DNA of 64,000 nt from Burkholderia sp. Lineage in GTDB: Bacteria; Pseudomonadota; Gammaproteobacteria; Burkholderiales; Burkholderiaceae. The stretch covers positions 62,001 through 126,000 of the forward strand of contig JAIRVP010000079.1 of NCBI GenBank assembly GCA_031253835.1, given 5' to 3'. Below the pieces are notes generated by a model, which was given only the letters and a program-made list of their open reading frames with translations, had not been told where the DNA came from and did no database searches. Of this stretch, positions 42,812 to 46,258 are shown piece by piece. A program made the position numbers and the translations under genes. Within the stretch, counting starts at the first letter, position 1. Every line of letters starts with the position of its first letter.

Positions 42812-43933
42812 TTACTTGTCGAGCAGGATGCGCAGCATGCGGCGCAGCGGCTCGGCCGCGCCCCACAGCAGCTGGTCGCCGACCGTGAATGCCGACAGGT
42901 ATTCGCCGCCCATCGCGAGCTTGCGCAGGCGGCCGACCGGCACCGACAGCGTGCCCGTGATCTTCGCCGGCGACAAGTCGCGCATCGATGCTTCGCGCTC
43001 GTTCGGCACGACCTTCACCCAGTCGTTCGCCGACGCGAGGATGCCGTTGATCTCGTCGAGCGGCACATCCTTCTTCAGCTTGATCGTCAGCGCCTGCGAG
43101 TGGCAGCGCATAGCGCCGATCCGCACGCACAGGCCGTCGACCGGGATCGACCCCGGCTCGCCCATGGCCGGCTTGCCGAGGATCTTGTTGGTTTCCGCGC
43201 CGCCCTTCCACTCTTCCTTCGACATCCCGTTGCCGAGATCCTTGTCGATCCACGGGATCAGCGAGCCGGCCAGCGGCACGCCGAACTGGCTCGTCGGCAT
43301 CGCGTCGCTGTTCATCGCGGCCAGCACGCGGCGGTCGATGTCGAGGATCGCGGAAGCCGGATCGGCGAGCTGCTCCTGCACCGCGCCGTTCAGCGCGCCC
43401 ATCTGCGACAGCAGCTCGCGCATGTTCTGCGCGCCCGCGCCCGATGCGGCCTGGTAGGTCATCGCCGTCATCCAGTCGACGAGGTTCTCGCGGAACAGGC
43501 CGCCGAGCGCCATCAGCATCAGGCTGACCGTGCAGTTGCCGCCGACGAAATTCTTCGTGCCCTTGACGAGTGCGTCCTTGATCACGTCGAGGTTGACCGG
43601 ATCGAGGATGATGACCGCGTCGTCATTCATCCGCAGCGACGATGCCGCGTCGATCCAGTAGCCGTTCCAGCCGGCCGCGCGCAGCTTCGGGAACACGTCG
43701 TTCGTGTAGTCGCCGCCCTGGCACGTGATGATCACGTCGCACTTCTTCAGCTCGTCGACGTTGGTCGCGTCCTTGAGCGTAGTCTCGTTTTTCGCGAACG
43801 ACGGCGCCTTGCCGCCCGTGTTGCTGGTGCTGAAAAACACCGGTTCGATCAGGTCGAAATCGCCTTCTTCCTGCATGCGCTGCATCAGGACGCTGCCGAC
43901 CATGCCGCGCCAACCTACGAGACCTACGTTCAT
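42812..43933 (-). CDS. asd: Aspartate-semialdehyde dehydrogenase
   Basis: NADPH-dependent enzyme at the common branch to lysine, threonine, methionine and isoleucine. 373 residues. [20 protein letters not shown] is the nucleotide-binding start; the catalytic Cys is in [24 protein letters not shown] precedes the ATG. A short Thr/Ile/Lys-rich reading frame and alternative hairpins lie directly upstream, suggesting amino-acid-responsive attenuation. Confidence 0.96.
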
Positions 43934-43954
43934 GACTAACCCTTTGCTTTGAAT

Positions 43955-43996
43955 GGAGCTTCCCCGCCATTTCCGTCCCCGCGTGACCGCGCGGGG
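43955..43996 (-). promoter_or_regulatory. Alternative hairpins between the leader frame and asd
   Basis: CCCCGCG / CGCGGGG (43977-43996, 6-base loop) lies about 22 bases after the leader stop. The same left arm (TTCCCCGC) could instead pair with GCGGGGAA further downstream, close to the asd start. Only one can form at a time, as in attenuators. No U tract follows the first hairpin, so control of translation is as likely as termination. Confidence 0.5.
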
Positions 43997-44018
43997 AAAC
44001 AGGCGGGCACGACGGCGA

Positions 44019-44138
44019 TCAGCGTTTAATGATCGTTTTCGTGGTAATGGTTTTCGTGATGACGATGGCGCGCGCACCCGCACGGGCAGTGTTGCCGTGG
44101 AGTTTCAGGACCGGGGAGATCAGGGAAATCAGCGCCAT
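44019..44138 (-). CDS. Putative asd leader peptide (39 residues)
   Basis: Short frame starting [15 protein letters not shown] and ending [16 protein letters not shown] before TGA. The last 16 codons hold five Ile, five Thr and three Lys codons, amino acids made from aspartate semialdehyde, the asd product. Its stop is 85 bases before asd. No ribosome site precedes the ATG, but a promoter 6 bases upstream would give a leaderless mRNA. It parallels the thr operon leader of E. coli. I infer a regulatory leader peptide; the frame may not be annotated elsewhere. Confidence 0.6.
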
Positions 44139-44144
44139 CGTTCG

Positions 44145-44173
44145 AGTCTACACAAAGCCGGTGGCCCGCACAA
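44145..44173 (-). promoter_or_regulatory. Candidate promoter for the asd leader
   Basis: Minus strand TTGTGC (44168-44173), 17-base spacer, TAGACT (44145-44150). The -10 box ends 6 bases before the leader ATG, so transcription would begin at or next to the A of ATG. Confidence 0.5.
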
Positions 44174-44248: not shown

Positions 44249-45316
44249 TTACAGCGCCGCGACCACCGCGTCGCCCATCGCCGTCGTGCCGACCTGCCGG
44301 CAGCCCGGCGTCGCGATGTCGCCCGTCCGGTAACCCTGCTCGAGCACCGTTTTCACCGCGCGCTCGATGCGATCGGCCTGCTCCGCGCGATTCAGCGAGT
44401 AGCGCAGCATCATCGCGGCCGACAGGATCGTCGCGAGCGGGTTGGCAATGCCCTTGCCCGCGATGTCCGGCGCCGAACCGTGCGACGGCTCGTACAGACC
44501 CTTGTTGTTCTTGTCGAGCGACGCCGACGGCAGCATGCCGATCGAACCCGTCAGCATCGACGCTTCATCCGACAGGATGTCGCCGAACATGTTGCCCGTG
44601 ACGATCACGTCGAACTGCTTCGGCGCCTTCGCGAGCTGCATCGCCGCGTTGTCGACGTACATGTGCGACAGCTCGACGTCCGCGTATTCCTTCGACACGT
44701 CGATCATGACGTCGCGCCAGAACTGCGACGTTTCGAGCACGTTTGCCTTGTCGACCGACAGCAGCTTCTTCGCGCGCTTGCGGGCGGCCTGGAACGCGAC
44801 GTGCGCGATGCGGCGCACTTCCGGTTCCGAATAGCGCATCGTGTCGAAGCCTTCGCGTTCGCCGGCGAACGGGCCGTCCGGTGCAGCGCGCACGCCGCGC
44901 GGCTGGCCGAAGTAGATGTCGCCGTTCAGTTCGCGCACGATCAGGATGTCGAGGCCCGCGACGAGCTCGGCTTTAAGCGGCGACGCATCGACGAGTTGCG
45001 GATAGCAGATCGCCGGGCGGAAGTTCGCGAACAGCTCGAGATGCTTGCGCAGCCCGAGGATCGCCTGCTCGGGGCGCAGCGCGCGCTCGAGCGAGTCGTA
45101 CTTCCAGTCGCCGACCGCGCCGAACAGGATCGCGTCGGCTTCCTTCGCGAGCGCAAGCGTCGCGTCGGGCAGCGGATGGCCGCTCGCCTCGTAGCCCGCG
45201 CCGCCGACCGGCGCCTGTTCGAGTTCGAACTTCTCGTCGAGTGCGTTCAGCACCTTCACGGCTTCATTGACGATTTCCGGACCGATGCCGTCGCCGGGCA
45301 GCACTGCAATCTTCAT
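44249..45316 (-). CDS. leuB: 3-isopropylmalate dehydrogenase
   Basis: Third leucine enzyme, oxidative decarboxylation of 3-isopropylmalate. 355 residues. [21 protein letters not shown] start and the metal/NAD motif [26 protein letters not shown] are present. It lies 77 bases after leuD and probably shares its transcript. Confidence 0.97.
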
Positions 45317-46111: not shown

Positions 46112-46258
46112 TCAGTCCGCGGCGCGCTGCAGCGCGTTGCCCGCGGCGTTGACGTCCTCGCCGAAGCCTCGGACGGTATTGCAGCCCGCGAGGCCGAAGC
46201 CCAGCCCGGCCAGCGCCAGCGCGGCAACCAGCCGCGCGATGACCTTCGATACCGTCAC
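46112..46258 (-). CDS. Entericidin A/B family small lipoprotein
   Basis: 48 residues starting at GTG: a basic start, hydrophobic stretch [17 protein letters not shown] with a lipobox (LAGC, Cys at 26), then [18 protein letters not shown], the entericidin signature. The mature lipoprotein is about 23 residues and should be anchored in the envelope. It begins 3 bases after the leuC stop and lies before leuD, so it is made with the leucine genes. The role here is unknown; entericidins in E. coli form a toxin/antidote-like pair tied to stationary phase. Confidence 0.85.

Follow-up and report, generated by a model that had tools for sequence, protein, structure and literature searches.

A candidate attenuator upstream of asd in Burkholderiaceae, with a predicted leaderless leader frame ending in Thr, Ile and Lys codons

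Results

A 39-codon frame lies between leuB and asd

The window, by which we mean the whole 64-kb stretch of Burkholderia sp. DNA that was analysed, carries on its minus strand asd, the presumed regulated gene, which encodes aspartate-semialdehyde dehydrogenase (42812..43933), and leuB (44249..45316). Between the two lies a short upstream open reading frame (uORF) of 39 codons, running on the same strand from an ATG at 44138 to a TGA at 44019 (44019..44138). The asd start at 43933 lies 85 nt past the uORF stop and fits the relatives, since their stop-to-asd gaps of 80–91 nt keep no single frame; a likely Shine-Dalgarno site for asd, AAAGGG (43940..43945, minus), is found 3′ of the four RNA arms described below. 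The uORF ends in a run of Thr, Ile and Lys codons (44022..44069, minus), a putative sensor: these three residues account for 12 of the last 14 codons, and 11 or more were reached in none of 100,000 base shuffles of the uORF. The frame that a first-pass annotation had placed directly before asd, with its terminal Thr/Ile/Lys run, is thus present.

Other features of the locus were also inspected. Helix lengths in a hairpin inside the uORF (44099-44081) were not clearly above those of shuffles, and this candidate was rejected. The first codons of asd (e.g. 43933-43919) include GTA and GGT, which are uncommon where the genome is GC-rich; they recur in many loci of the order, including many that lack the leader, and so were not taken as part of the element. 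Between leuC and leuD, a small frame on the minus strand (46112-46258) resembles an entericidin-type lipoprotein.

A promoter-like site is kept a few bases before the uORF start in most loci

A promoter-like site on the minus strand (44145..44173) consists of TTGTGC (44173-44168), a 17-nt spacer and TAGACT (44150-44145), and the six bases CGAACG separate TAGACT from the uORF ATG. This is the layout previously claimed, and its spacing is kept in relatives. The arrangement TGTANANT, 6–8 nt and ATG occurs a single time on the two strands of the window, at the uORF ATG. A promoter scan with a consensus cut-off of 9/12 lists no site before the uORF because TTGTGC and TAGACT match 8 of the 12 consensus bases.

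Spacing was scored with a −10-like hexamer defined by A at position 2, T at position 6 and at least four of six bases. In the named-genome scan, such a hexamer ends 6–9 nt 5′ of the ATG in 78 of the 79 uORF loci among the matches listed (6 nt in 55, 7 in 5, 8 in 15, 9 in 3, none in 1). Where several ATGs fitted in that scan, one with a −10-like hexamer was preferred, a bias that is avoided by the 97 loci with a single candidate. In these the spacing was 6 nt in 85, 7 in 3 and 8 in 7, with no hexamer in 2, so that 95/97 fall within 6–8 nt; among shuffles, 0.8% have a −10-like hexamer at exactly 6 nt. On inspection, rather than by systematic comparison, TTGTGC-like −35 sites were visible in most Burkholderia rows.

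Six bases between the −10 element and the ATG would place +1 at the A of that start codon, and from the conserved spacing we predict a leaderless uORF transcript. For B. cenocepacia, published transcription start sites include those of leaderless mRNAs, and the AT-rich motif lies on average between −8 and −16 (PMC4603805, partial text); a term search of the main text of that source returned no mention of asd. Of the earlier claim of leaderless translation, the −10 to ATG spacing expected from it is indeed conserved, and a transcript start at the ATG itself is predicted from that spacing.

The uORF accompanies asd across several genera of Burkholderiaceae

The uORF peptide was matched in all 65 same-genus genomes (E 1.4e-4 or better), with 92–100% identity in 52 of the 65 best matches. 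At E values up to 0.1, matches extended to 104/398 family genomes and 6/25 genera, the weakest being probably due to chance. From identical or near-identical peptides, the genera coded g1, g3, g10, g20, g24 and g25 are inferred to be Burkholderia, Cupriavidus, Caballeronia, Paraburkholderia, Ralstonia and Trinickia, respectively. One to three loci were sampled from each of genera g2, g7, g11, g15, g16, g17, g18 and g21, and the leader was found in none of them.

We next considered 147 loci in which an asd start could be recognised; uORF matches had supplied many of them, and loci L001-L092 came by way of the window or of such matches. The downstream RNA motif was present in 115, and each of these also has an open uORF. 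Among the 32 loci lacking the motif, 29 have neither a uORF nor a fused run, two (L097 and L140) have a uORF and one (L147) has a run fused to LeuB. The genome of L097, of about 1.2 Mb, has a short Thr/Ile/Lys frame and a stop-codon hairpin without the B/D motif. Five rows in which a second asd pattern failed (L082, L086, L089, L090 and L131) were dropped. A second, more distant copy of asd (55–58% identity) occurs in at least four family genomes (G039, G044, G096 and G191).

Given how L001-L092 were obtained, counts based on asd matches or on the RNA pattern carry less bias. In loci fetched through asd matches alone, the frame was present in 28/40 family loci; L131 could not be placed. A scan for the RNA pattern, with one genome per species over 84,980 species, gave at least 118 stretches, of which 80 loci were listed. 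Among these listed matches, 80/80 lie before asd and all belong to Burkholderiaceae (Burkholderia, Paraburkholderia, Caballeronia, Trinickia, Cupriavidus and Ralstonia); 79 have the uORF, and the remaining one is cut at the locus edge. A search with RNA model R1 gave one strong match in the window's own genome and six, all in Burkholderiaceae, in 349 genomes of the order. A second match in the own genome (L154, E 0.001) lacked the layout of a leader and was attributed to chance. Five weak places, spread over four genomes from other families (E 0.003–0.009), were judged likewise, with four of their loci inspected. Across loci the uORF varies from 27 to 59 aa with its frame kept open. Neither a broken frame nor freely varying terminal codons, either of which would have spoken against the annotation, was found in the 115 motif loci or in 79 of the 80 listed RNA matches.

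The terminal codons are strongly biased in composition and usage

Thr, Ile and Lys are end products of the branch fed by asd. Over the last 13 codons of 117 loci, Thr accounts for 549, Ile for 410 and Lys for 325 of 1521 codons. Lys is encoded by AAA in 311/325 codons of the run, as against 5/79 in five genes of the window, and Ile by ATT in 189/410 as against 4/94. This preference may reflect either rare codons, which could favour stalling, or selection at the level of the RNA. Among 96 distinct frames, pN/pS was 0.77 for the N-terminal and 0.66 for the C-terminal part, values which indicate weak constraint on the peptide itself. The two peptide members tried matched nothing in Pfam or NCBIfam. 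Sensing of Thr, Ile and Lys, as proposed from the window alone, gains from the persistence of this composition across genera and in two further families (see below), with Lys the uncertain part and the least certain of the three signals. In the 3.5-kb loci fetched for two hom-like genes of the own genome, no short ATG frame rich in Thr and Ile was found.

Alternative RNA pairings follow the uORF

A hairpin, H1 (44016..44035, minus), spans the uORF stop codon by pairing CGATCA (44035-44030) with TGATCG (44021-44016). It is found with 6–8 pairs in 114/117 loci (L094 has four pairs; L047 and L140 lack it), and changes on both sides preserve it, as in GCGAUUA/UAAUCGU and ACGAUCU/AGAUCGU. Downstream lie four arms, all on the minus strand. 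From sequence and folding, arm A, CCGTCGTGCCCGCC (44002..44015), can pair with C or D, and arm C, CGCGGGGACGG (43973..43983), with A or B; arm B, TTTCCCCGC (43991..43999), can pair with C or D, on the evidence of an RNAalifold consensus over 90 sequences and of the B:D pairing given below, and arm D, GCGGGGAAG (43959..43967), with B or A, from sequence and RNAalifold. Two mutually exclusive hairpins sharing one arm had been claimed here, and exclusive pairings do exist by sequence, B with C or D and A with C or D.

Pairing was examined in 28 of 48 representatives, the alignment leaving out 18 Burkholderia sequences, whose C arm does not align, together with L064 and L100; another step of the analysis used 40 of the same 48. 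In these 28 non-Burkholderia sequences, B:D was paired in 98.8% of cells and hardly varies, A:C was paired in 96.4% with wobble changes only, and the nested hairpin of A:D and B:C was paired in 89.3%. None of the A/B/C/D pairings showed double changes beyond those of shuffles within this set. Species-swap tests gave 3/200 for H1, 6/200 for A:C, 6/200 for A:D, 50/200 for the helix between and 129/200 for B:C; the tests of B:C and of the middle helix were uninformative and were dropped.

Folding was then modelled with a ribosome masking part of a transcript that ends 2 bases short of the end of D, and expected pairs were compared between a ribosome at the stop codon and one at codon −7. In the Paraburkholderia/Trinickia group, A:C rose from 2.4 to 6.3 pairs (7.2 with no ribosome), and in Ralstonia from 0.7 to 6.2. 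In Cupriavidus it rose from 3.0 to 10.3 at −7, but was 2.8 at −4 and 3.1 at −10. Little switch was seen in Caballeronia (A:C from 2.9 to 4.0) or Burkholderia (B:C from 6.9 to 4.8, A:C from 2.6 to 1.9). The modelled ribosome-dependent switch is thus weak in Burkholderia and Caballeronia, whereas Cupriavidus, Ralstonia and the Paraburkholderia group show it in part; in these models the window's own genus is the weakest of the set, a real gap. When eight bases were added to the modelled transcript, competition from B:D grew, and in g8 that pairing dominated.

The predicted accessibility of the asd Shine-Dalgarno region was 0.48–0.51 at every ribosome position, and that of the asd AUG was 0.27–0.43 with no clear pattern. 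Occlusion of the asd start, which was also considered, is not supported. A terminator scan of the window gave no terminator-like site at the leader, which sets the hairpins apart from a textbook terminator/antiterminator pair, and no U-run follows D in Burkholderiaceae (n = 94; 3.1 U per 10 nt on average and 6 at most). The RNA that begins with the last 15 codons and extends to arm B is 36% C and 17% G, a composition compatible with a Rho site (rut-like).

Similar candidate leaders occur in two other families, in one of them also fused to LeuB

Thr/Ile/Lys-rich frames were found near asd in 6/76 loci sampled from other families of the order, three in genomes of family f14 and three in f49; in the remaining 70 the leader was not found. 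At least nine Thr, Ile or Lys residues in 12 were present in 4 of the six loci, compared with 0/380 shuffles. L317 also passed the composition screen; its frame ends 199 nt before asd and was taken as chance. No asd start was recognised in L311, L323, L328 and L334, and in L173 and L181 one was recognised by a wider asd pattern only.

In f49, a large family whose size suggests Comamonadaceae, asd was found in 57 of 60 genera searched, and a Thr/Ile/Lys run was present in 22/23 loci. This run ends a separate uORF in 12 loci and an in-frame tail of LeuB in 10 (L147, L353, L356, L357, L362, L364, L365, L367, L368 and L369), in which the tail directly precedes the asd leader RNA. The separate frames often begin MFAARPF, and by eye a TANAAT hexamer lies 6–11 nt before an in-frame ATG in each of the 12. 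In loci where the LeuB end was recognised, the LeuB tail contains 6–9 Thr, Ile or Lys residues in the 10 fused f49 loci; another six f49 loci have 0–1, and the 89 loci from elsewhere have no more than 2. Met, another product of the asd branch, also occurs in two f49 LeuB tails. By eye, the upstream peptide looks unrelated between families.

A stop-codon hairpin of the GGCUG/CAGCC, GAGCU/AGCUC or AGAGC/GCUCU kind is present in 18/22 f49 loci, a count made without a control, and the best helix in the other four is built from other bases. In the f49 A:C helix, CCGGUUCGUC/GACGAGCCGG, 95.9% of cells are paired and two pairs are double-changed; the covariation score of this helix was reached by 2/500 shuffles, and slid versions pair in 23–49%. 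In masked folding, a ribosome at the stop codon gave 0.2 expected A:C pairs and 6.7 B:C pairs, and one stalled 3, 6 or 9 codons back gave about 10 and about 1, respectively. The geometry fits, but the modelling is suggestive only, here and in Burkholderiaceae: a mask placed at the stop necessarily hides part of A, and A:C is already high with no ribosome (8.9 in f49, 7.2 in the Paraburkholderia group). A hairpin followed by a U-rich stretch occurs in 9/22 f49 loci, as compared with 0–2 of 50 shuffles of each region. Inspection of the three f14 loci by eye shows a shared-arm layout; one of them has the pair CCCCGC/GCGGGG and another CUCCGC/GCGGAG. The earlier annotation had missed the hairpin at the stop codon, the arrangement in four arms, the occurrence in further families and the fusion to LeuB.

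Discussion

The layout at asd is that of ribosome-mediated attenuation, judged by its sequence, and we consider it probable that a ribosome-mediated attenuator lies before asd and senses the charging of Thr and Ile tRNAs, and probably of Lys tRNA. Translation of the uORF, starvation sensing and the direction of control are inferred. Transcription would start at, or a few bases from, the ATG of the short leader frame, which would be translated without a Shine-Dalgarno site, and the last 10–13 codons, mostly Thr, Ile and Lys, would be the sensor. When charged tRNA is short, the ribosome would slow within the run, leaving A free to form A:C, an antiterminator-like pairing. When it is sufficient, the ribosome would reach the stop codon, melt H1 and cover the 5′ part of A, so that C pairs with B; in Burkholderiaceae A:D would also form, giving one long hairpin. 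The B:C state would lower asd expression. The output may be termination of transcription, perhaps intrinsic in some f49 and perhaps Rho-dependent in Burkholderiaceae, or something else. The argument for the codons as the signal is that upstream peptides which look unrelated, among them the tail of an enzyme, end in Thr, Ile and Lys before asd, together with a stop-codon hairpin.

Within this explanation, the same sensor might act through a different output, on asd translation or on Rho access, in place of an intrinsic terminator, a version that we hold to be possible while giving it less than even weight. The lack of a terminator in Burkholderiaceae and the rut-like composition between the last 15 codons and arm B agree with it, and there is an E. 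coli uORF paper in which Rho-dependent events are often mentioned (PMC12121999, partial text). The unvarying accessibility of the asd Shine-Dalgarno region and the patternless values for the AUG, however, argue against control of asd translation, and the hairpins with U-rich stretches in 9/22 f49 loci favour intrinsic termination there.

It is also conceivable, but very unlikely, that the element acts as RNA alone, with the A/C-rich run serving as a spacer, either rut-like or unstructured, and its open frame incidental. The strong preference for AAA and ATT and the low G content of the run would suit such a spacer; the length changes that preserve the frame, the ATG conserved at the predicted start, the in-frame fusion to LeuB and the stop-codon hairpin in most loci of two families would not. 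Slightly less likely still is a nascent peptide that arrests the ribosome in response to a free metabolite, as TnaC does with tryptophan, rather than to tRNA charging. Although the C-terminal residues adjoining the stop codon are alike in many Burkholderiaceae (e.g. KTITKR), the last residues and their order vary (KR, KS, IP, IA, IS, KG) while composition is kept, and what precedes the run shows no evident relationship from one family to the next, being LeuB in 10 f49 loci. Least likely of all is a conserved small protein that has its own function, since the high identity within the genus is set against weak constraint over 96 distinct frames, no Pfam or NCBIfam match for two members, a different N-terminus in other families and, in 10 f49 loci, a run that is a mere tail of LeuB.

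Four known systems come closest to the asd leader. In thrL, the leader of the enteric thr operon, a Thr/Ile run in a short frame precedes genes of the aspartate family and exclusive hairpins follow. The asd leader shares the run and, by sequence, exclusive pairings but sits at asd rather than thrABC, is predicted to be leaderless, includes Lys codons, lacks a U-run terminator in Burkholderiaceae and has no Rfam match; neither the Thr leader RNA nor any other Rfam model came near its gathering score at the window site or in 10 relatives. The proposal of thr-leader-type control moved to asd is supported as regards the frame, codons, spacing and conserved RNA arms, and departs from its model in the U-run missing from Burkholderiaceae. 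The trpL leader of Sinorhizobium meliloti differs in sequence from the asd leader and concerns Trp, trpE(G) and another bacterial class. The first bases of its transcript are the ATG of the leader-peptide frame, so that it is leaderless, and it acts by attenuation (PMC7298713, partial text), much as is predicted and proposed for asd. In E. coli, the topAI uORF senses ribosome stalling and controls downstream genes; unlike the asd leader it senses antibiotics rather than amino acids, at another gene (PMC12121999, partial text). The uORFC-8-2 motif before cysS in Rhodobacterales, a candidate from comparative genomics whose codons match the amino acid of the downstream gene, differs in concerning cysteine, a tRNA synthetase gene and alphaproteobacteria (PMC8632094, partial text). 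Among the titles and abstract openings of the open full-text literature searched, none described an asd leader peptide for these bacteria, and priority is unproven; term searches of PMC8632094, PMC2965389, PMC5760752 and PMC7563307 (partial texts) gave no mention of asd.

With less assurance than for the attenuator itself, we lean towards a wider reading in which asd is attenuated over several families of Burkholderiales, the sensor codons being interchangeable between a leaderless mini-gene and the tail of LeuB, and one frame reporting Thr, Ile and Lys. If so, starvation control would act at asd, the branch-point enzyme, rather than at a terminal branch; several end products would be read by one frame, and a leaderless leader peptide would have persisted across several genera. 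Should the LeuB-fused form be real, it would show how the end of a gene already in place can be recruited by an attenuator, an arrangement that annotation would hardly flag.
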